Below, piece after piece: positions 40,072-52,993 of a stretch of DNA of 64,000 bases (positions are counted from its first letter, which is position 1; each line of letters starts with the position of its first letter). The notes beneath the pieces are model-generated. The model searched no databases. It worked only from the letters and a program-made list of their open reading frames with translations, and was not told the DNA's origin. A program made the position numbers and the translations under genes. The DNA comes from Verrucomicrobiia bacterium (GTDB lineage Bacteria; Verrucomicrobiota; Verrucomicrobiia; Verrucomicrobiales; Akkermansiaceae), in contig CANHQJ010000001.1 of the NCBI GenBank assembly GCA_947462875.1, forward strand, positions 1 through 64,000, given 5' to 3'.

Positions 40072-40136
40072 ACTCCTTACTACGGGCGCGTTCATGAATT
40101 CCTCGCACAAAAATGTGCGTGTGCCACAAGATTTTG

Positions 40137-40156
40137 CTTGTGAAATTTTTCACAAG
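40137..40156. promoter_or_regulatory. CRP/FNR-family-like operator upstream of actA
   Basis: The 20 bases have 9-bp inverted arms (CTTGTGAAA / TTTCACAAG) and contain TGTGA-N6-TCACA, the CRP consensus half-sites. The site is 29 bp before the actA ATG, so it would overlap or lie just downstream of a promoter, as expected for repression or local activation. A second small hairpin (CGCACA/TGTGCG) is at 40104-40119. No crp gene lies in the window. Confidence 0.6.
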
Positions 40157-40184
40157 CAGGCAGATTCCGCCACCGCAACTCGCC

Positions 40185-40898
40185 ATGGCCAATATTTTTC
40201 CTCGCTGGACCAATTTACTACCGTTGAAAATCGCATTTTGTGCTGGAACCGCCGCCGTGGGTGTGGTGGCTGCTTTCACGGTTTATGCGACTCCGAAGGC
40301 GACCGTGGTCGGCTATCAACCTTCGCAACCGATTCCGTTTTCTCACAAAATCCACGTCGATCAGCTCGGGTTGGATTGCCGCTATTGCCACTCGTTTGTG
40401 GACAATTCGGACCACTCGAACCTGCCATCGGCGAACACCTGCTGGAACTGCCACCAGCACGTGCAACGTCAGAGTCCCAAGCTGGAGCCGCTGCATCGCG
40501 CGATGGACAAAACCCATCCGCTCTACGATGGCAAGCCGATCCAGTGGGTGAAGGTGCACAAGGCCCCCGACTACGTGAAATTCAGCCACAGCGCCCACGT
40601 CAACCGCGGCGTGTCCTGCGTCAGCTGCCACGGCCAGGTCGATCAAATGGAAGTCGTCTATCACGCGAAGGCGCACTCCATGGGCTTCTGCCTCGATTGC
40701 CACCGCAACCCCGCCGACAACGTTCGTCCGCTGGAGGAAGTCTTCAATCTGAAATACGATCCTGCCGAGTATCTGAAACAGCATGTGGTGCTCAACGACA
40801 AGGGCGAGCGCATCAGCGACCCGAAAGAGTTCGGCAAGAAATTGTCCGATGTCTTCAAGCTGCAACCGCGTGAAAGCTGCGCCACCTGCCACCATTAA
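40185..40898 (+). CDS. actA: ActA, pentahaem cytochrome c subunit of alternative complex III
   Basis: 237 residues from ATG 40185. One N-terminal TM helix (about 12-34), then five CxxCH haem sites: CRYCH 65-69, CWNCH 86-90, CVSCH 145-149, CLDCH 169-173, CATCH 232-236. ACIII oxidises menaquinol and passes electrons to periplasmic carriers in place of cytochrome bc1. First gene of the locus, behind a CRP-like site. The leader lacks a clear Shine-Dalgarno. Confidence 0.93.
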   Translation: MANIFPRWTNLLPLKIAFCAGTAAVGVVAAFTVYATPKATVVGYQPSQPIPFSHKIHVDQLGLDCRYCHSFVDNSDHSNLPSANTCWNCHQHVQRQSPKLEPLHRAMDKTHPLYDGKPIQWVKVHKAPDYVKFSHSAHVNRGVSCVSCHGQVDQMEVVYHAKAHSMGFCLDCHRNPADNVRPLEEVFNLKYDPAEYLKQHVVLNDKGERISDPKEFGKKLSDVFKLQPRESCATCHH

Positions 40899-40925: not shown

Positions 40926-43900
40926 ATGAGCAAACGCATTTGGCAACATCCAGAAATCCCAGCGGACGAAACCACCGTATCCTGGCGCAGCGTGGGGCAG
41001 CTTGAGGGCAGCCCCGCATTCCGCGAGTATATGGATCGCGAGTTTCCCGCCAGTGCCGCCGCGATGGCGGACGAAGCGGATGCCGAGACTTCACGTCGTT
41101 CCTTCCTCAAGCTGATGGGGGCATCGTCCGCCTTGGCTGGTCTCAGCATGGTGGCTTGCCGCCGCGCCGAGAAATATACCGTGCCTTACACGCAGGCTCC
41201 CGAGTGGGTGATTCCGGGCAAGGCGCTGTATTATGCTTCCGCCATGCCGCGGGCCACGGGGGCTGCTCCTGTGGTCGTGACCACCTTCGAAGGCCGCCCG
41301 ACGAAGCTCGGCCCGAACACCCTGCATCCCGACTCCGATGGCACGGACGCCTTCGTGCAGGCCTCGGTGCTCGACATGTATTCTCCTTCGCGTTCGCAGA
41401 AAATTCTTCATCACGCCAAAGTTGCGACACGTGCCGATCTCGAAAAAGCGCTCGCGGAGGCTGCGGCATCCGGCAAAATCGGTTTCCTTTTCGGCGCCGA
41501 TGAGTCGCCGACCCGCACCCGCCTCAGCAAGGAGCTCACCGCCAAGTTCTCCGGTGCTAAATTCTATTCCTACGAGCCGCTGGCACCCGCAGCCAGCGCT
41601 GCGCGTGCCGTTGCTGATTTTTCGGAAGCCGACCGCATCATTTCGTTCGATTGCGACTTCGCCTCGCTCGATCCCCAAGGTCCGGTGACTCCATTCTTCG
41701 ATCGCCGCAAGCCCGAGGGCAAAGGCTACAAGGCCAAGCGCGATGTGAAGACGATGAATCGTCTTTATGCGGTGGAAAGTATTTTCAGTCTGACCGGCGG
41801 CATGGCCGATCACCGTCTCCGCATCGAGCCGAGCAAAGTTCTCGGCATCGCCGCCGCGATTGCGAAAAAGCTCAGCGTTTCCCATCCGCTGGTCGCCACG
41901 GCCGCGGCTCTCGATGAGAAAACCCAGAAATGGGTGGATGCCGCTGCGGAAGATTTGCTCGCGTCCAAAGGCAAGGCTCTCGCGCTTGCCGGTTCGCGCA
42001 CCGCACCGGCCTTGAAAGCGATCGTGCAAGCGATCAATGAGGCACTCGGAGCTCAGGGAACTACTCTCAAAGTGCTGGCTTCCGACAACGCCGGCTTTGG
42101 TGACATCGCTGGTCTGAAAAAAGACATCGAGAGCGGTGCCGTCGAGTATGTTTTCCTGCTCACTCCCGCGAATCCCGTCTTCGACGCTCCTGCCGATCTC
42201 GCGTTTGTCACGACTCTGCAAAAAGCCAAAGCGAGCTTCCATCTGGGCCTGCGCACGGATGCCACCGCCCACGCGGCGACCTGGCACATTCCCGCCGCGC
42301 ATTATCTCGAGAGCTGGTCGGACGCCCGCTCGGCGAGCGGCTTCCACACACTCATCCAGCCGATGATTCTGCCGCTCTACGACGACTGCGTTTCCGAGCT
42401 GGAATTGCTGTCCGCTCTGCTTGAGGGCAAGCTGGTCACCGGCGAAGAATCCGCGGCCTTTGCGGCCGTGCGCAAGACCTTTGCGAGCGATGCGGCTTCG
42501 TGGAAAAAAGCGCTGCGTGAGGGCTTCACGACCGGTACCTCGGCAGCGGCTCCCATGCCTTCCATCGAGGCCCCGGCACCGAGCTACCAGGCTGTCAGCG
42601 AGCAAAGTCTCGACGTGATTTTCTCCACCGACGGCTCGATTTTCGACGGTCGCTGGATCGACAACGCCTGGCTGCAGGAGTCACCGGATCCGATCTCGAA
42701 ATTGACCTGGGACAATGCCGCCTTGATCGCGCCGAAAACGGCAAAGGCGCTTGGCATTTACGATCAGGTGACCGAGCTGGAAAGCCCGCGCGCGGCCAGC
42801 CCGGTCGATGGCGAGGCCGGCAATCGCCGCGCTCCCATCATCAAGATTTCCCTCGGTGGCAAGGACATCGAGATCCCTGTGCTCATTGCTTTCGGACTTG
42901 CCGAAAACACCATCGTGCTGCCCGTCGGCTACGGCCAAGGCTACGATGCGGAGGATGAACTCAGCCGCGGTCCGCTCAATGCCACGCACGTCGGCCTGGT
43001 CGGCGTCAATCGCGGCGTGAACGTCTATCCGTTGCGCGATTCCGCCACGACTTACATGGCGCAGGGCGCGAAAGTCTCTCTCACCGACAAACGCTACTCC
43101 GTGGCGCTCACGCAAGAGCACCACGCGATGTATGGCCGCGCCCTTGCCCGTGAAATTTCCACGCTCGATGGCGAGAAGGGGAGTTTCGAGAAACAATACG
43201 ATGCCGTCGCCAAACAAGGCAATGACTCCCATGCGCCGAAAAACATGTCCCTCTACAAACAAGAGGGATCGAAAACCTGGGATGCGGACAAAGATGGCAA
43301 TGCCAAGCCGCACCTGAGCGATGACCTGCACCAGTGGGCGATGAACATCGACCTTTCCTCCTGCATGGGCTGCAACGCCTGTTTGGTCGCTTGCCAGGCG
43401 GAAAACAACATTCCGGTGGTCGGCAAGGAGCAGGTCGCGAAAGGCCGTGCGATGCACTGGATCCGCATGGACCGCTACTTCGCGCAAAACAAGGACAATA
43501 CTTTCGATGCCGATAGCCCGGCGATGGTTCCGCAACCGGTTGCCTGCGTGCAGTGCGAGAGCGCACCCTGCGAGACGGTTTGCCCGGTCAACGCCACGGT
43601 TCACACCGAGGACGGCCTCAACGCCATGGCCTACAACCGCTGCATCGGCACCCGCTATTGCGCGAACAACTGCCCCTACAAGGCCCGTCGTTTCAACTAT
43701 TTCGACTACAACAAGCGCAACCCGCTCATCGCGCACAACCTCTACAAAGGTCCTGCTGGCGTCACGCAAGTGGGCGAAGCACCGCACCTTCAGCGCAACC
43801 CGAACGTCACCGTGCGCATGCGCGGCGTGATGGAGAAATGCACGTATTGCGTGCAGCGCCTCAAGGACGCGAAAATCCGTCAGAAGCGCGGTCAGAAGCA

Positions 43901-44207
43901 GGACGTTCTCGCCTCCGGCAAAACGTCTCCTGAAGTCGCCGTCACCGCACAGACCCTGCGCATTCCTGTCGATAGCGTCAAGGTCGCCTGCCAGGAGGCC
44001 TGCCCGGCGGATGCGATCAGTTTCGGCAACCTGCTCGACGAGCAAGCCGCCACCGTCGTTCGCGGTCGCGAACTCGCCCGCAGCTACGAGCTCCTGCATT
44101 ACATCGGCACCATTCCCCGCACGCTCTACATGGCGCGTGTCAAGAATCCGAACGAAAAAATGCCGGACGCCGCGTTTGTCGGAACCGCCACGATCCACAT
44201 GGCCTAA
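40926..44207 (+). CDS. actB: ActB, molybdopterin-type/Fe-S fusion subunit of ACIII
   Basis: 1093 residues. A Tat-like signal (SRRSFLKLMGASSALAGL) starts after about 55 cytoplasmic residues. A molybdopterin-oxidoreductase-like domain follows (about 75-760), which in known ACIII carries no cofactor. The C-terminal ferredoxin-like region has Cys groups at about 812 (CMGCNACLVAC), 874 (CVQCESAPCETVC), 906 (CIGTRYCANNC), 973 (CTYC) and 1021 (CQEAC), enough for several Fe-S clusters. Pyrimidine-rich leader, no Shine-Dalgarno. Confidence 0.93.
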   Translation: MSKRIWQHPEIPADETTVSWRSVGQLEGSPAFREYMDREFPASAAAMADEADAETSRRSFLKLMGASSALAGLSMVACRRAEKYTVPYTQAPEWVIPGKALYYASAMPRATGAAPVVVTTFEGRPTKLGPNTLHPDSDGTDAFVQASVLDMYSPSRSQKILHHAKVATRADLEKALAEAAASGKIGFLFGADESPTRTRLSKELTAKFSGAKFYSYEPLAPAASAARAVADFSEADRIISFDCDFASLDPQGPVTPFFDRRKPEGKGYKAKRDVKTMNRLYAVESIFSLTGGMADHRLRIEPSKVLGIAAAIAKKLSVSHPLVATAAALDEKTQKWVDAAAEDLLASKGKALALAGSRTAPALKAIVQAINEALGAQGTTLKVLASDNAGFGDIAGLKKDIESGAVEYVFLLTPANPVFDAPADLAFVTTLQKAKASFHLGLRTDATAHAATWHIPAAHYLESWSDARSASGFHTLIQPMILPLYDDCVSELELLSALLEGKLVTGEESAAFAAVRKTFASDAASWKKALREGFTTGTSAAAPMPSIEAPAPSYQAVSEQSLDVIFSTDGSIFDGRWIDNAWLQESPDPISKLTWDNAALIAPKTAKALGIYDQVTELESPRAASPVDGEAGNRRAPIIKISLGGKDIEIPVLIAFGLAENTIVLPVGYGQGYDAEDELSRGPLNATHVGLVGVNRGVNVYPLRDSATTYMAQGAKVSLTDKRYSVALTQEHHAMYGRALAREISTLDGEKGSFEKQYDAVAKQGNDSHAPKNMSLYKQEGSKTWDADKDGNAKPHLSDDLHQWAMNIDLSSCMGCNACLVACQAENNIPVVGKEQVAKGRAMHWIRMDRYFAQNKDNTFDADSPAMVPQPVACVQCESAPCETVCPVNATVHTEDGLNAMAYNRCIGTRYCANNCPYKARRFNYFDYNKRNPLIAHNLYKGPAGVTQVGEAPHLQRNPNVTVRMRGVMEKCTYCVQRLKDAKIRQKRGQKQDVLASGKTSPEVAVTAQTLRIPVDSVKVACQEACPADAISFGNLLDEQAATVVRGRELARSYELLHYIGTIPRTLYMARVKNPNEKMPDAAFVGTATIHMA

Positions 44208-44246: not shown

Positions 44247-45740
<1,494 letters not shown>

Positions 45741-45776: not shown

Positions 45777-46334
45777 ATGAGTACGACACGGAAAAAAGTT
45801 TACGGATACCTGGCAGAGTTCAAGAGCGCTTCGGCTCTCTACAAGGCTGCGGAAAAAGTGCGCGATGCCGGATTTACCAAATGGGATTGTTATTCGCCGT
45901 ATCCGATCCACGGACTGGATGCAGCGATGGGCCTGAAGCGCTCCATCCTTCCCTACATGGTGTTTTTCGGCGGAATGACAGGCACGATCACCGCGTTCCT
46001 GCTGGCCTACACCACGCAGGTGGTCATCTACCCGACCGTGGTGCAGGGCAAACCGACCAACTTCTTCACCTTGCCGGCGTTTTTCCCGATCATGTTCGAG
46101 CTGACGATTCTGTTCTCCGGCTTCACCACCTTGTTCGGTCTGCTCGCCTTGATGAAACTGCCGCGTTTCAACCACCCGCTTTTCGCCAGCAAGCAGTTCG
46201 AGCGTTCGACCGACGATGGATTTTTCATCGCCCTCGAAGCGCGCGACCCGAAATTCTCCGCCACCGGCACCAAGGACTTTCTTGGAGAAATCGGCGGCAG
46301 TAGCATTGAACTCATCGAGGAGGAACCTGCGTAA
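45777..46334 (+). CDS. actD: ActD, DUF3341 membrane subunit of ACIII
   Basis: 185 residues. The N-terminal segment (YGYLAEFKSASALYKAAEKVRDAGF...WDCYSPYPIHGLDAAMGL) is the DUF3341 signature, followed by two TM helices (about 60-82 and 100-125). It stabilises ACIII in the membrane. The leader before it is A/G-rich (GAAAAGCTGAAAAC), unlike its neighbours. Confidence 0.92.
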   Translation: MSTTRKKVYGYLAEFKSASALYKAAEKVRDAGFTKWDCYSPYPIHGLDAAMGLKRSILPYMVFFGGMTGTITAFLLAYTTQVVIYPTVVQGKPTNFFTLPAFFPIMFELTILFSGFTTLFGLLALMKLPRFNHPLFASKQFERSTDDGFFIALEARDPKFSATGTKDFLGEIGGSSIELIEEEPA

Positions 46335-46354
46335 TCCCTGACACTTTTTTGCCC

Positions 46355-47059
46355 ATGAAATATTTCTTTCTCTTTTATGCGATCGTAGCCATTTCCGTGG
46401 TCGGTATTTTCAAGTACCGCGGCCACAGCTTCAGCGAGCCGCCGATCGTCTTGTTGCCTGACATGGACAATCAGGATGTTCTCAAAGCGCAGAAGCAGGA
46501 TGCGTTCTTCGCCGATGGTCAGGGGGCTCGCAAGCCCGTCGCGGAAACCGCACCGCGCGGTTTCCAGGCCGATGGCGCGACGAATCTAGGCGGCATTCCC
46601 GAGTATGAATTCTCCGGCGGCTCCGGCTACTACTACACCGGCCACATGGGTGATTACTTCGGCACAGGCATGCCCGAGGAGCTGAAACTCACTGCCGAAA
46701 CCTCGCAGGAGCTGCTCAAGCGCGGCGAAGAGCGCTACCAGGTGTATTGCTCGGTCTGCCACGGCAAATCCGGCGATGGCGCGGGCGTGACCAGCCTTTA
46801 CGGCGTGCCCGGCATTGCGAATCTGGTGTCGTCTCCGTATTCCTCCGCCACTTATCCCGATGGCCGTTTGTTTGAAGTGATCAGCAAAGGCAAAGGCAAC
46901 ATGTCGGGCTATGCCTACAACATCCCCGTGCGTGACCGCTGGGCGATCATCGCCTACATCCGCGCGATGCAGGTCGCCCGCAGCGCTCCCTATGAGGTCG
47001 TCAAGGACGCCTATGAGGCTGGCAAAAAACAACAAGACGCCGCGACTCCCGCCCCCTAA
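46355..47059 (+). CDS. actE: ActE, monohaem cytochrome c subunit of ACIII
   Basis: 234 residues from ATG 46355. An N-terminal TM or signal anchor (FFLFYAIVAISVVGIF) precedes a linker and a cytochrome c domain with CSVCH in RYQVYCSVCHGKSGDGAG and a late Met (MSGYAY region) as likely axial ligand. In known complexes ActE faces the periplasm. It sits 20 bp after actD. Confidence 0.9.
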   Translation: MKYFFLFYAIVAISVVGIFKYRGHSFSEPPIVLLPDMDNQDVLKAQKQDAFFADGQGARKPVAETAPRGFQADGATNLGGIPEYEFSGGSGYYYTGHMGDYFGTGMPEELKLTAETSQELLKRGEERYQVYCSVCHGKSGDGAGVTSLYGVPGIANLVSSPYSSATYPDGRLFEVISKGKGNMSGYAYNIPVRDRWAIIAYIRAMQVARSAPYEVVKDAYEAGKKQQDAATPAP

Positions 47060-47085: not shown

Positions 47086-48501
47086 ATGGCACACCACGTC
47101 ACATCCCACGACATTCCTGCAAACGGCGAGCACCTGGATGCATCCAGGATCGGCAAAGTCAAAACGATCGCGCTCGCCGTGATGGTTCTTGGCGGTCTGC
47201 TCAGCGCGTATCTCCTGTTTTTCGCGCCCAAATCGCAGCAGGGGAGCTTCGCCTATTCCTGGGTCTTTGCGCTGTTCTATTTCTTCACCCTGGCTCTCGG
47301 CGGTTGCTTCTGGACCCTTCTGCACAATGTTTCGAACAGCGGCTGGGGCACCAGCGTGCGTCGTGTGATGGAGAACCTCGGCTCGGTGTTTCCGTGGTTG
47401 AGCATTTTTGCCATCCCGTTGCTTTGCCCGAATGTGCAGTATTACCTGTATGAGTGGATGAACATGCACCGCAAGGTGGGCGGGGACATTCCGACGATGA
47501 CGCTCATCACCGAGTGGCTGGCCGGTTCGTGGAACTGGGTGCTGAACGGCTTCCGCTACCTGACGACAGGCGAGACCGTGCCGATGGCTTCGACCATGGC
47601 CGACCGTCTCCATCATGCCGATCACCTGATGTTCAACAAACACTGGTTCATGAACCTGCCGTTCTGGTATTTCCGCACCGTCATGTTCTTCGTGGCGCTG
47701 GGCTATGCGATCTATCGTTTGCGCAAGCTTTCCACCGTGCAGGACACCGACCCGAATCCCGGCACGGTGCATCTGTTCAAGGCCCGCCGTCGCGCCGCTG
47801 CGTTCCTCCCCATTCTCGCCCTGACCGTGACCTTCGCCGCTTTCGACTGGCTGAAAGGCATGGACTACACCTGGTTCTCGACGATGTATGGCGTTTACAT
47901 CTTCGCCGGTTGCGCGATCAACTCGATGGCCGTCATCATCATCACGGTCTATCTTCTGCGTCGTTCGGGTTACCTGAAACATGTGGTCAGCCAGGAGCAT
48001 TTCCACATCATGGGCAAGCTGCTCTTCGCCTTCACGGTGTTCTGGGCCTACGTGACATTCTCGCAGTTTTTCCTGATCTGGTATGCGAACATCACGGAGG
48101 AAACGAAGTATTTCCTCATCCGTAACACCGAGGGCTGGAACATCGCCAGCATCGCTCTGGTGATCATGCACTTCGTGCTGCCTTTCGTGGTCTTGCTGCA
48201 ACAGTGGCTGAAGAAAAAGCCTCATTTGCTCAGCGCCGTGGCGATTTACATGCTGCTCGTGCACATTCTCGACATCTACCTGATCGTCATCCCCGAGCGC
48301 GGCATTTCGCTGGGCAATATCGACCACGCCACCTTCGGCGACATCGCAGTCACCATCAAGGGCGCCTGGCTCGGTGACGTTCTTGCCTTTGTCACCATCG
48401 GTGCCGGTTTTGTGTTTTTCTTCCTTCGCGCGCTCGGCCAGCACGCGTTGTATCCTCACCGCGATCCCCGCATTCTGGAATCCGCGAATCTCTCTAACTG
48501 A
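47086..48501 (+). CDS. actF: ActF, second NrfD-like membrane subunit of ACIII
   Basis: 471 residues, about ten TM helices, with segments such as FAYSWVFALFYFFTLALGG and FFVALGYAIYRLRKL. It pairs with ActC in the membrane and, like it, belongs to the NrfD family. The start MAHHVTSHD resembles that of ActC ([10 protein letters not shown]). Preceded by a pyrimidine-rich leader. It is followed 20 bp later by the extra cytochrome gene. Confidence 0.92.
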   Translation: MAHHVTSHDIPANGEHLDASRIGKVKTIALAVMVLGGLLSAYLLFFAPKSQQGSFAYSWVFALFYFFTLALGGCFWTLLHNVSNSGWGTSVRRVMENLGSVFPWLSIFAIPLLCPNVQYYLYEWMNMHRKVGGDIPTMTLITEWLAGSWNWVLNGFRYLTTGETVPMASTMADRLHHADHLMFNKHWFMNLPFWYFRTVMFFVALGYAIYRLRKLSTVQDTDPNPGTVHLFKARRRAAAFLPILALTVTFAAFDWLKGMDYTWFSTMYGVYIFAGCAINSMAVIIITVYLLRRSGYLKHVVSQEHFHIMGKLLFAFTVFWAYVTFSQFFLIWYANITEETKYFLIRNTEGWNIASIALVIMHFVLPFVVLLQQWLKKKPHLLSAVAIYMLLVHILDIYLIVIPERGISLGNIDHATFGDIAVTIKGAWLGDVLAFVTIGAGFVFFFLRALGQHALYPHRDPRILESANLSN

Positions 48502-48521: not shown

Positions 48522-49313
48522 ATGGACCCGTCTCAAGACAACCCTATCCTTCGCTTCAAAGCTTTTTTCTGGGCATTGGCCGTCTTTGGCTTCTTCGGTG
48601 TCGTGCTCGGCATCGTGGCACTGCTGGAGAAAAAAACACCGCAGACACTGGAAGATCTGGCTGCTGCGACCCGCTACCAGAACCGTGATAAGATCAATTC
48701 CGCCCAAGCGGCGAATTTTTCCTACAAGGAAGTGGAAGCCGGCAAAACCGTCCAGGTGAAACCGCAGGATGTCTTCGCTCACGTGAGCCAGCAATTGGCG
48801 GCTACCAAACCATCCGCTGTGGAAAAACCGGAGCAGGTGATCCCTGGCTCAGCTGCGGCCAAGGCGATCGAGGAAGCGGCGAAAAACGCGGCACCTGTGA
48901 CGGTGGCCGAGACGGATCCGAATGCTCCCATCGACCCCGCCGTCATGGATGCGGGTAAAACCGAATACGCCCTGTGCCAGGCCTGCCATGGTGCTGATGG
49001 TGCGGGTGTTCCCGGATTGGCTCCGCCGCTTGCAGGCTCCGAGTGGGTCGTGGGTCCGGTGGAAAATCCGATCCGCATCACGCTTCGCGGTCTCGGCGGT
49101 CCGATCCAGGTCAAAGGTGTCGATTACAATCTGCCAGCGCCGATGATGGCCGTGGCGCACCTTTCCGATCAGCAAATCGCCGCAGTGCTTACCTATGTGC
49201 GCAACTCTTTCGGCAACAAGGCTTCCGCGGTGACGCCGGATCAAGTCAAGGCATTCCGTGGCGAAGTGGGGCTGCCCTCCCTTCAGGCAAGCGACCTCAA
49301 AGCGCCGAAATAA
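48522..49313 (+). CDS. Membrane-anchored monohaem cytochrome c of the ACIII locus
   Basis: 263 residues. N-terminal TM (about 13-34), then an Ala/Pro/Lys-rich linker of about 110 residues, then a cytochrome c domain with CQACH (about 152-156) in ALCQACHGADGAGVPGLAPPL and a Met candidate in NLPAPMMAVAHLSDQQI. Compared with canonical ACIII this is an extra c-type cytochrome between actF and the cbb3-like genes and could link the two modules electronically. Confidence 0.88.
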   Translation: MDPSQDNPILRFKAFFWALAVFGFFGVVLGIVALLEKKTPQTLEDLAAATRYQNRDKINSAQAANFSYKEVEAGKTVQVKPQDVFAHVSQQLAATKPSAVEKPEQVIPGSAAAKAIEEAAKNAAPVTVAETDPNAPIDPAVMDAGKTEYALCQACHGADGAGVPGLAPPLAGSEWVVGPVENPIRITLRGLGGPIQVKGVDYNLPAPMMAVAHLSDQQIAAVLTYVRNSFGNKASAVTPDQVKAFRGEVGLPSLQASDLKAPK

Positions 49314-49343: not shown

Positions 49344-50843
49344 ATGTCAACTGAATCTCCATCATCCGCTGAACAAGACGCGATTCTCCGCACGGCGATT
49401 GACCGTTCGATGCGTCATCCGGTCATGTTCTTTTTCACCAGTGGTGCCGTGTGGCTGGCGCTGTCCCTGATTTTGGGAATCATCGCCGTGGCGAAAATGG
49501 TGTCGCCCGAGTTACTCGATGGCTGCCCGATGCTGACCCAAGGCCGTGTGTTTGCGGCCCACATTTCCACTCTGGTCTATGGCTGGGGCTGCCAAGCGGC
49601 CTTCGGTGTGCTGATCTGGTTGGTGGCGCGTCTGACGCGTCAGGAAAACCGCGCCTCGGGCATCGTGCTGGCTGCCGGACATGCATGGAATCTCGTGGTG
49701 GCCGTGGGCACGATCGCGATTCTCGCTGGCTATGGCACGGGCGTGCCGTGGATGGAGTTTCCCGCGATGGTCTGGCCCGCTTTGTTGGCCACCTACACGC
49801 TGATCGCGATCTGGACGATGATCCAGTTCCGCGTGCGTGCGGCGGGCGAGGTGTATGTCTCGCAGTGGTTCGCTGTGGGTGCCTTGATTTGGTTCCCGTG
49901 GATCGTCGCCACGGCCTATGTGCTGATTTTCCTCGTCGGTGGCAATCCGCTGATGTCCGCGGCAGTGGCGGCATGGTTCCGCTCGGGACTGACGTATCTG
50001 TTCTTCGTGCCCACAGCCGCAGCGGTGGCTTATTATCTTGCGCCGAAAATCACTGGACGCCCTGTCCACAGCTACTCGCTCTCGCTGATCGGTTTCTGGA
50101 CGCTTGCCATCGTCGGTCCTTGGGCTGGCATGCAGAAGCTGGCCGGTGCGCCGATTCCCTTTTTCCTCCCTTACCTCGGTGCTGCGGCGGCTGTCTTGAT
50201 CGGCGTGCCTACCGCCGCCATCGCGATCAGTACCTTACGCACGATGTGTGCGGCACCTGAAAAATTCGCCGCCAGCCCCTCGCTGCGCTTCTCTTCCGCC
50301 GGCGTGGTCTGCATGCTGCTGCTCGGCGTGGCGAGCGTGTTTACCAATCTGCCTGACTCGACCTTGCCACTCTCGCAGTTCAGTATCACCGCTTACGGCA
50401 TGGATATCCTTGCCATTTACGGATGCTTCAGTTTCCTGATGTTCGGTGCGATGTATTTCATCGTCCCGCGCGTGACGCGCCGTGAGTGGTTGTCGAAGCG
50501 TCTGATCAAGCTGCATTTCCTTTTCTCGATGTATGGCGTGATCACCGTGGCCGTGCTTTCGGTGCTGGGCGGCTTGCTCCACGGCCAAGGGCAGGAGGAT
50601 TTCAAATTCCCCTGGGACAGCGCCGTGGCTCGTGCCTATCCGTACTTGATCGCCACCTTGATCGCCTGGTGCTTTGTGCTGTTCTCGAACTTCTTCTTCT
50701 GCATGCATCTGTTGTTGATGTGGATGCGCCTCGGTCGCCGTTCCTCGCATCCGACCTTGCTCGGTCACGCGCATGTGGAAAATCCGCATGGTCCTGAAGG
50801 GGACATCGACAACGCCGGTCCCGGATCCGTGATCGCCCACTAA
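49344..50843 (+). CDS. CcoN-like cbb3 subunit I lacking the active-site histidines
   Basis: 499 residues, about 12-13 TM helices. Overall alignment to CcoN is clear: RVFAAHIST (His73, low-spin haem ligand), YYLAPKITGRPVHSYSLSLIGFW and GAMYFIVPR occupy canonical positions. The CuB ligands are gone: WFRSG (211-215) replaces the W-x-GHN motif, and WAGMQKL (260-266) replaces WAGPHHL. The haem b3 and second haem b ligands (HVHSG) are replaced by LAIYG (about 356-360). It therefore cannot form a haem-copper centre as understood. It keeps a conserved fold, so it may be a structural or quinol/cytochrome docking subunit. Confidence 0.88.
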   Translation: MSTESPSSAEQDAILRTAIDRSMRHPVMFFFTSGAVWLALSLILGIIAVAKMVSPELLDGCPMLTQGRVFAAHISTLVYGWGCQAAFGVLIWLVARLTRQENRASGIVLAAGHAWNLVVAVGTIAILAGYGTGVPWMEFPAMVWPALLATYTLIAIWTMIQFRVRAAGEVYVSQWFAVGALIWFPWIVATAYVLIFLVGGNPLMSAAVAAWFRSGLTYLFFVPTAAAVAYYLAPKITGRPVHSYSLSLIGFWTLAIVGPWAGMQKLAGAPIPFFLPYLGAAAAVLIGVPTAAIAISTLRTMCAAPEKFAASPSLRFSSAGVVCMLLLGVASVFTNLPDSTLPLSQFSITAYGMDILAIYGCFSFLMFGAMYFIVPRVTRREWLSKRLIKLHFLFSMYGVITVAVLSVLGGLLHGQGQEDFKFPWDSAVARAYPYLIATLIAWCFVLFSNFFFCMHLLLMWMRLGRRSSHPTLLGHAHVENPHGPEGDIDNAGPGSVIAH

Positions 50844-50875: not shown

Positions 50876-51589
50876 ATGACACTTCGCTTTTTCACTTTGG
50901 GTATGACGGCCTCTTTCGGCACGGCATGGCTGTTTGCCGTGGTGCTGCCATTTTTCAAAACGCGCGAACTGAAACCTGTGCCGTATGTCGAGGCGATCGA
51001 TGAAAAGACGGGTGTCTATTTCCCGAAGCGCACGGGCCAAATCACCAATGGCGCCAAGGTTTACGCACAGAACGGCTGCTACGTCTGCCACACCCAGGTG
51101 GTGCGCCCCACCTACGCCGGCAATGATTTCCATCGCGATGGCTGGGCCGGCTTCAAGGCGGATCCGGATCGTGGTGACACGCGCCGTGAATCGAATGTGT
51201 TCGATTACCAGAACGAGGAGTTCGCGCAGATTGGCCTGATGCGCATCGGTCCCGATCTCTCCAACGTCGGTGCGCGCTACGCGAAAGCGGCGATCGCGAA
51301 AAACACGGAGCTCAAGGAGAAACTGGGCGATGCCTGGAATGACTCGATGAAAATCACGCCGGAGGATCTGTTGTTCGAGCATCTCCACAATCCTCGTCTG
51401 AATGTGGACATGCGCTGGTCGACCTGCCCCGCCGTTCCGTTTTTGTTTGAAAAACCGAAAGCCGATCAGGTGACTCCCGCACCAAAACCCGAAGCGCGCG
51501 CGCTGGTGGGCTACTTGATGTCGATGAAGAAAGACGATGCCGTGCCGGCCTCGATGAACTACTCACCGCCGAAACCTGCTGAGAAATAA
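50876..51589 (+). CDS. CcoO-like monohaem cytochrome c
   Basis: 237 residues. N-terminal TM (about 5-24, LGMTASFGTAWLFAVVLPFF), then one haem site CYVCH (about 65-69) in QNGCYVCHTQVVRPTY and an RIGPDLSNVGARY stretch typical of CcoO. The late NVDMRWSTCP may supply the axial Met. It follows the CcoN-like gene by 32 bp, keeping the cbb3 gene order. Confidence 0.88.
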   Translation: MTLRFFTLGMTASFGTAWLFAVVLPFFKTRELKPVPYVEAIDEKTGVYFPKRTGQITNGAKVYAQNGCYVCHTQVVRPTYAGNDFHRDGWAGFKADPDRGDTRRESNVFDYQNEEFAQIGLMRIGPDLSNVGARYAKAAIAKNTELKEKLGDAWNDSMKITPEDLLFEHLHNPRLNVDMRWSTCPAVPFLFEKPKADQVTPAPKPEARALVGYLMSMKKDDAVPASMNYSPPKPAEK

Positions 51590-51626: not shown

Positions 51627-52412
51627 ATGTCACAAGACTCTTCTCCTCAACCTACCGCTCGCCCTGATCTGGACGACTTGATCAACGTAACGAGCGCCCA
51701 CAGCAGCAATGCCACGGCCGCTGCCGCGCGTGAGTATCGCAACCCCGGTGCCGACAAGGAACCGCTCTCCATCGCGGCGTTCGCGCTGTGTGCGGTGATG
51801 CTCATCATCGGCGGCTCGGTTCTTGGCAAAACCTCCGGCGCTTTGTTTGATTATGAGTCGTGGATCAAACCGAACTACGTTCGCGGAAAAGCACCCGGCG
51901 TGGCGGACGATGTGGCCCTGCCACCCAAGCCCATCCTCGACCTCTACGTGAAAAAAGGCCAATCGCTGTATAGCGCGAAGTGCAACGGTTGCCACGGTGC
52001 CGATGGCAAGGGCGATGGCGCCAACTATCCTTCCTTGGTCGGATCCGCTTGGTCCACCGGTCACACGGAACGTTTTTCGCAAATCATTCTCAACGGTCTG
52101 CAAGGTCCCACCAGCACGGGCAAAGTGTTTGGTGCCGGCGTGATGCCCGCCCAGGGTGGTGGCATGAGCGCCCAGGACCTGGCCTACATCATGACCTTCA
52201 TCCGCAACAGCTTTGGCAACACGGTAGGGGATGTGGTGACGGCGGAAATGGCTCAGGCCGCGATCGACCTCGCCGGCAAGCGCCCGAATCCCTCGGCGCC
52301 TGTGACCGCGGACGAACTGAAGTCCTATGAAAAGGATCTGGCTGGTGACAAAATGGATCCCGCCACTCTCGTCGATCCCATCACCTTGAAGCCTGTCGAG
52401 GCGAAGAAGTGA
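51627..52412 (+). CDS. Membrane monohaem cytochrome c in CcoP position
   Basis: 261 residues. One TM (about 50-70, FALCAVMLIIGGSVLG) precedes a cytochrome c domain with CNGCH in KCNGCHGADGKGDGANYPSLVGSAWSTGH. The Met ligand is probably in VMPAQGGGMSAQD. Canonical CcoP has two haems; only one CxxCH is present here. C-terminal tail is Lys/Pro-rich. No ccoQ or ccoS gene is adjacent. A strong terminator follows. Confidence 0.88.
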   Translation: MSQDSSPQPTARPDLDDLINVTSAHSSNATAAAAREYRNPGADKEPLSIAAFALCAVMLIIGGSVLGKTSGALFDYESWIKPNYVRGKAPGVADDVALPPKPILDLYVKKGQSLYSAKCNGCHGADGKGDGANYPSLVGSAWSTGHTERFSQIILNGLQGPTSTGKVFGAGVMPAQGGGMSAQDLAYIMTFIRNSFGNTVGDVVTAEMAQAAIDLAGKRPNPSAPVTADELKSYEKDLAGDKMDPATLVDPITLKPVEAKK

Positions 52413-52443
52413 TTCCATGGTTCGCGCCCGATAGAGCTTTCAC

Positions 52444-52474
52444 AAAAAGCGGTTCCGTAAGGAGCCGCTTTTTT
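52444..52474 (+). terminator. Rho-independent terminator at the end of the respiratory locus
   Basis: AAAAAGCGG (52444-52452) pairs with CCGCTTTTT (52465-52473) and CC/GG extends the inner stem, followed by more T. It lies 32 bp after the last cytochrome gene and probably ends a transcript of about 12 kb starting at the CRP-like site. Confidence 0.88.
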
Positions 52475-52567
52475 GTTCATCGCCACTCCACAGAAACGCA
52501 GCCACCCCCTAACAATCAAAAATTCCCCTTGTCACGGGATAGGGGAATCCGCAATCCTTCACCTATC

Positions 52568-52993
52568 ATGAAGTTACGCACTACGCTCGTCCGCCTCCTA
52601 CTCTGCGCGGTTGGCTTCCTTTCACCCGTGGCGATGGCAGAAGCGCCCGCCAAACCCGCGCCCAAAGCACCGCCGGCGAAACCGCAAGCCAAACCGCAGC
52701 CGAAGCCCCAACCCAAGCCGCAGCCCAAACCAGAGGCAAAGCCGGCTGGTCAGGCGGAGATTCTGAAAAAATACGATCTGGATCACAGCAAGACCTTCAA
52801 TGTGACGGAAGCACGAACGATTCAGGATGCTTACGCCGCCAATCCGCAAGACCCCTTGTTGAAGAAATACGATACCGACAAAAACGGGAAAATCAGCGAT
52901 GCGGAATTCATGAAAATCACGCCGCCGCCCCCGACACCCAAAAAGCCCAAACCGGCCGCGAAAAAGCCGCAGAAACCGCAAAAAAAGAAATAA
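52568..52993 (+). CDS. Secreted EF-hand protein with PK-rich repeat
   Basis: 141 residues from ATG 52568. Signal peptide ending at about AMA (residue 24). A Pro/Lys/Ala-rich stretch with KPQPKPQPK repeats (about 25-60) precedes two EF-hand loops: DLDHSKTFNVTE and DTDKNGKISDAE, both with calcium-type acidic positions. The C terminus is again Pro/Lys-rich. Such small EF-hand proteins are frequent in Planctomycetes and Verrucomicrobia, and their role is unknown. Confidence 0.85.
   Translation: MKLRTTLVRLLLCAVGFLSPVAMAEAPAKPAPKAPPAKPQAKPQPKPQPKPQPKPEAKPAGQAEILKKYDLDHSKTFNVTEARTIQDAYAANPQDPLLKKYDTDKNGKISDAEFMKITPPPPTPKKPKPAAKKPQKPQKKK

Follow-up and report, generated by a model that had tools for sequence, protein, structure and literature searches.

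Many Verrucomicrobiota keep, beside the genes of alternative complex III (ACIII), a CcoN-like protein that has lost nearly all the ligands of a haem-copper oxidase subunit and is probably a membrane scaffold. Here we describe one such gene in a 64,000-nucleotide stretch of DNA (the window) from an Akkermansiaceae genome. Alignment and selection data indicate that the ligand-less gene does not code for a working oxidase and is not a relic either.

The open reading frame is intact and encodes a protein of 499 aa, which gave a Pfam COX1 match of 134 bits and to which the solved CcoN chains 9g6b_A and 3mk7_A aligned across most of its length. The AlphaFold2 monomer model (pLDDT 78, pTM 0.82) matched CcoN of 3mk7 with a TM score of 0.87 in Foldseek. 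VIA superposed the model on CcoN of a cbb3 oxidase (8smr_E) with a Z score of 43.8 at 2.5 Å over 444 residues, superposition on nitric oxide reductase (39.7) and on A-type oxidases (about 32) being weaker. The window protein thus has the haem-copper oxidase fold of CcoN, and is nearer to CcoN than to nitric oxide reductase in both sequence and fold. The NorB histidine ligands and FeB-site glutamates of cNorB were not found together in it, the histidine sites being the very ones that it has lost. It scored 79.9 bits against the ccoN equivalog, for which the cut-off is 583, a threshold also missed by ligand-intact ACIII-linked relatives (235-254 bits).

Ligand sites were read from an alignment with the canonical CcoN of the same genome and 99 homologues. 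Only one of the six histidines of a C-type subunit I is kept, namely H73, the TM2 ligand of haem b. The CuB histidines are replaced by S214 (GHN reads RSG) and by Q264 and K265 (PHH reads MQK), the haem b3 histidine by M353 and the second low-spin haem b histidine by I355, while G258 stands in place of the cross-linked tyrosine of TM7. The sequence-only reading had described an intact, full-length gene with the fold of cbb3 subunit I, in which GHN, PHHL and HVH had become RSG, MQK and AIY. The frame, the fold and the first two motifs were borne out, but HVH aligns with MDI (353-355), AIY lying a few residues off. Loss of the CuB and haem b3 ligands was likewise correctly seen and yet understated, as the tyrosine and the second haem b ligand are also gone. 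With five of the six ligands and the tyrosine missing, its conclusion that no usual haem-copper centre can be built holds good. When the alignment was searched for other histidines at the ligand positions, no conserved one was found there; the invariant H113, H391, H455 and H469 of the window's group align with none of the ligand sites. On this alignment it is a well-supported prediction that the window protein is catalytically incompetent as an ordinary oxidase. H113, H391 and H455 are invariant in the Akkermansiaceae group, H113 being particular to it. Their helix positions put them close to where TM3, TM11 and TM12 end on the cytoplasmic side, and a new cluster, polar or metal-binding, might be built from them.

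The CcoN-like gene is the eighth of ten genes on the + strand (Table 1), and the nine intergenic gaps of 14-39 bp suggest that the ten may be co-transcribed. A promoter scan of the + strand of the cluster, which is not informative for this phylum, returned no promoter-like site. The locus carries the complete actA-actF gene set of ACIII, together with haem c partners resembling CcoO and CcoP that have one haem motif each, the third subunit being monohaem and not dihaem. This gene order is repeated in relatives with enough flanking DNA, and the ligand-less gene is invariably accompanied by ACIII genes and by genes for haem c partners; the haem c partner subunits keep CXXCH throughout the relatives, and C68, C71 and H72 of the CcoO-like protein are conserved in them. 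The cytochromes at 48522-49313 and 51627-52412, which flank the CcoN-like and CcoO-like genes, are paralogues (38% over 108 aa). The former is present in the window's own subgroup and absent or reduced in many relatives, most other lineages having the downstream copy only. From synteny, the CcoN-like protein may be a physical subunit of ACIII. A small Pro/Lys-rich EF-hand protein is encoded at 52409-52993, with a 4 bp overlap with the end of the ACIII cluster.

Table 1. Genes of the ACIII cluster in the window
Feature	Coordinates	Strand	Evidence
actA-like pentahaem cytochrome c, 5 CXXCH	40113..40898	+	Cytochrome c7/QrcA matches; position conserved in relatives
actB, Mo-like/Fe-S fusion subunit of ACIII	40926..44207	+	699 bits to 6f0k_B, 368 bits to 6btm_B (ACIII ActB chains)
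actC, NrfD-family quinol subunit	44247..45740	+	Pfam NrfD; synteny
actD	45777..46334	+	Pfam ActD, 205 bits
actE, monohaem cytochrome c	46349..47059	+	Pfam Cytochrome_CBB3, one CXXCH
actF	47086..48501	+	188 bits to 6f0k_F ActF
Membrane-anchored monohaem cytochrome c	48522..49313	+	Paralogue of the cytochrome at 51627
Ligand-less CcoN-like subunit	49344..50843	+	ORF, COX1 match, alignment, fold
CcoO/FixO-like monohaem cytochrome c, haem motif kept	50876..51589	+	Pfam FixO, 34 bits
CcoP-like membrane-anchored monohaem cytochrome c	51627..52412	+	Pfam Cytochrom_C and Cytochrome_CBB3

Complete oxidases are encoded elsewhere in the same genome, all 3.95 Mb of which (97.7% complete) was searched with the PF00115 profile. 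Three matches were obtained: the CcoN-like gene, a complete A-type (aa3) subunit I and a canonical CcoNO fusion of a cbb3 oxidase (ccoN 615 bits; contig C3). The cox operon of the aa3 oxidase, whose CoxB keeps the CuA motif CGQLCGEGHGNM, lies on a contig (C6) other than that of the ACIII cluster. Neither a bd oxidase nor a bc1 cytochrome b was found in the 3.95 Mb searched, and the single ActD indicates one ACIII.

A scan of GTDB contigs yielded 40 relatives, all from Verrucomicrobiota and most of them carrying the label Akkermansiaceae or Verrucomicrobiales, whose loci have the ligand pattern of the window protein. A profile search covered 289 genomes of this phylum, and loci were fetched for about 60. 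The CcoN-like family, so named on sequence, fold and synteny, was present in many families of the window genome's class, and absent from 20 listed genomes of one genus (g2) in the window's own family. All six histidines and the tyrosine were found in 21 of the 99 homologues, 13 of them linked to ACIII and 8 (L093-L100) without ACIII genes beside them. The other 78 had 0-3 histidines and never the tyrosine; none had 4 or 5. The catalytic site among the 99 homologues is bimodal, either whole or wrecked, and some ligand-less lineages have no histidine at any of the six positions. In L080-L090 Gln has taken most of the former histidine ligand positions and Arg a CuB site (QQGRHQQ), so that the cavity looks to have been repacked as a polar network. 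L093-L100, from other classes of Verrucomicrobiota, make up a distant CcoN group in which the ligand set is complete; a CcoO-like neighbour is present, whereas ACIII genes are not in the vicinity.

Two genomes that are 98-99% complete (G001, G146) yielded no haem-copper oxidase besides the ligand-intact ACIII-linked protein, and neither bd nor bc1 was found in them, which makes it very probable that the ancestral ACIII-linked form was a terminal oxidase fed by ACIII. Each ligand-less genome checked carries another haem-copper oxidase. In five genomes (G125, G281, G205, G102, G224) the other oxidase is of A-type only, with one ACIII and no bc1, which implies that ACIII is able to feed an A-type oxidase. 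The cox genes directly follow the CcoP-like gene in many loci (L007-L040, L104-L113, L091, L092, L101), and are directly downstream in most Akkermansiaceae, in Verrucomicrobiales family f2 and in methanotrophs. A strict link between ligand loss and downstream cox genes was rejected, the ligand-less clade L076-L090 having no adjacent cox genes and the ligand-intact L115 having them.

To place the losses, a tree of 75 rows was computed under LG+C20 with the ligand columns removed. The ACIII-linked proteins form one clade with 100/100 support and, since the root falls among intact forms, the change is a loss. There are three losses on the best tree. One lies in the big clade that contains the window protein, Verrucomicrobiales family f2 and the methanotrophs; another in the clade L076-L090, where several long branches make the details unsure; and the third, a recent one, in L065 (G173), which is nested among intact relatives. 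A single ancient loss was rejected by the AU test (p=0.0016), and two against three losses gave p 0.142. The oxidase centre thus appears to have been lost more than once, with at least two losses.

In close pairs near the window the ligand-less gene is under strong purifying selection, with a dN/dS of about 0.04-0.06 (0.043-0.053 against L001, L006, L002 and L005), similar to that of actB and of the ccoO-like gene. This value, and a ligand pattern common to the 40 GTDB loci, ruled out a sequence or assembly error, chance or a pseudogene. The Akkermansiaceae group has also acquired invariant positions that are absent from canonical CcoN, e.g. H113, H455 and the C-terminal LGRRSxHPTLL. In L065, dN of the CcoN-like gene was 0.317 as compared to 0.086 for its intact neighbours, the corresponding values for actB being 0.143 and 0.101; constraint has shifted in the CcoN-like gene alone. 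With total ligand loss and a raised dN limited to this one gene, L065 offers a good natural experiment.

The sequence-only reading had offered three roles: a structural partner of ACIII, a membrane module that accepts electrons from it, or a relic recruited for quinone or cytochrome docking. The first of these fits best, whereas a relic does not fit the low dN/dS and the new invariant residues. We consider it moderately probable that the protein is a pseudo-oxidase with a structural role, tethering the CcoO-like and CcoP-like cytochromes to ACIII, with electrons going on to aa3. The CcoN-like subunit would descend from a working ACIII-linked cbb3-like oxidase, and would now bind no haem b3-CuB centre. 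Its barrel would hold the two monohaem cytochromes on ACIII, and electrons from menaquinol would pass through ACIII (ActB/ActA/ActE) to the haem c domains of the CcoO-like and CcoP-like proteins, and from there to CuA of the aa3 oxidase by direct contact or through a small cytochrome c. The catalytic job would have moved to aa3 while the scaffold stayed, and we propose that it was retained for the sake of ACIII and the cytochromes, which would rely on it. Against this reading stand the cox operon of the window genome, which is on another contig, the absence of cox genes near the large clade L076-L090, and the retention of H73 in the window's group, where haem might still be held with some atypical second ligand. 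That the cofactor-free haem-copper fold is a fixed subunit of a stable ACIII - pseudo-cbb3 - aa3 supercomplex across much of the window genome's class is a more tentative proposal, with somewhat less than an even chance of being right. Such a supercomplex, if real, would represent a hitherto undescribed type of respiratory assembly.

Electron acceptance within the CcoN-like subunit itself, the second role offered, is unlikely, the second haem b ligand having been lost as well; electrons would have to travel by way of the CcoO-like and cytochrome c partners, in which CXXCH is retained. In a rival explanation, one low-spin haem b would still sit on H73 with some other second ligand, making the protein an electron-transfer or quinol-binding cytochrome b in the ACIII module. 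H73 is indeed invariant in the 40 relatives that cover the position and in Verrucomicrobiales family f2. However, the second ligand position in the window's group is Ile/Val/Leu/Met, the arginine of canonical and intact forms (R454 in the genome's own CcoN) has become Thr/Val, and the helix positions of H113 and H455 put them close to the cytoplasmic face, remote from the haem b site of CcoN. The methanotroph lineage and most of L076-L090 have lost H73 itself, and we regard this explanation as improbable. Rather less credence still is given to a cofactor-free barrel that would move protons or other ions, driven by ACIII, as NrfD-type subunits are thought to do. Several former ligand sites do carry polar residues (Q/K in the window's group, Q/R/H in L080-L090), with a conserved membrane lysine, K265, at a CuB position, but many polar residues of the intact forms are lost, no coupling machinery was identifiable, and the replacements differ by lineage, so that no common ion path is conserved.

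A terminal oxidase with migrated ligands, for which only the persistence of the fold and of the partner subunits speaks, is very improbable: the window's group has no conserved histidine at or near the CuB and haem b3 positions, some lineages have none at all six sites, and another haem-copper oxidase occurs in every ligand-less genome checked. A decaying relic kept by chance would explain the lost catalytic residues and the raised dN of the recent loss L065, but this reading is scarcely credible, being refuted for the window's group by the low dN/dS, by full-length frames in all complete copies and by new invariant motifs (MQK, LGRRSxHPTLL) across a bacterial family.

The loss of the ligands bears on published physiology. 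In verrucomicrobial methanotrophs the ACIII-adjacent gene set has been called a high-affinity cbb3 oxidase (PMC6688271), and cbb3 oxidase has been counted in these bacteria elsewhere (PMC8498564, PMC10205796, PMC11102522); the genes in question (PMC6688271, PMC8498564, PMC11102522) have the gene order and family of the window locus. Methylacidiphilum kamchatkense Kam1 (G152; a single contig of 2,202,032 bp with four pmoA matches) has one CcoN-like copy (L091/L145), whose seven sites read, in order, S, E, S, S, H, F and V, with five of the six ligands and the tyrosine replaced. Its haem-copper family comprises two aa3-type members, one ba3-like, one cNorB-like and the ACIII-adjacent CcoN-like protein, with no other C-type oxidase. 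The candidate L140 was rejected as a cbb3 oxidase, as it matched no NCBIfam family and carries the NorB-like motifs HLWVEATWE, GHHYFW and AHGHLAFF, and was read as cNorB. On these residues the ACIII-adjacent 'cbb3' of Kam1 is predicted to be unable to act as an ordinary oxidase and, with no other C-type oxidase present, oxygen respiration would have to rest on aa3, ba3 or bd. The physiology of methanotrophs would need correction to this extent, since the enzyme invoked for high oxygen affinity has no catalytic site in Kam1. A ligand-less copy (L082, sites QQGRHQQ) is also found in a genome of 5,957,605 bp which we take to be Opitutus terrae PB90-1 (G099). The latter additionally encodes a haem-copper protein of 618-634 aa (L102/L138), about 27% identical to CcoNO, in which every ligand is present (MHQ, THHF, HSH) and whose gene precedes that of a dihaem partner. 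Where PMC8498564 cites Refojo 2010, methanotrophs and Opitutaceae are the only cases named of a C-type oxidase beside ACIII. Automatic annotation takes ligand-less genes as high-affinity oxidases, and microaerobic capacity is thereby overstated in metagenomes. No description of the ligand loss was found in the open-licence full-text literature, where conserved, strongly selected ligand-less homologues of haem-copper oxidases appear to be undescribed; a subscription journal may already have reported it. As a single phylum offers for comparison both a working, ancestor-like form and at least two losses, the change from oxidase to structural subunit becomes directly testable.

CcoN of cbb3 oxidase (3mk7, 8smr, 9g6b) resembles the window protein in its 12-helix fold, its CcoO/CcoP-like neighbours and the TM2 haem b histidine, whereas the window protein lacks the CuB and haem b3 ligands, the second haem b ligand and the tyrosine, and is linked to ACIII. 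The orphan CcoN isoforms of Pseudomonas aeruginosa are active catalytic isoforms. Like the window protein, CcoN4 and the other orphan isoforms are extra copies beside a complete oxidase (PMC5697931), but the window protein is ligand-less. Cofactor-free integral membrane subunits of a redox complex are known in the NrfD-like ActC and ActF (PMC8076601). The CcoN-like protein would share with these the lack of cofactors, although the folds are unrelated. In the ACIII-aa3 structure of Flavobacterium johnsoniae, ACIII is said to contact subunit III of the oxidase, and a CcoN-like subunit is reportedly absent. The likeness to this supercomplex lies in an ACIII that feeds an A-type oxidase without bc1 (Sun et al. 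2018, as cited in PMC8361435).
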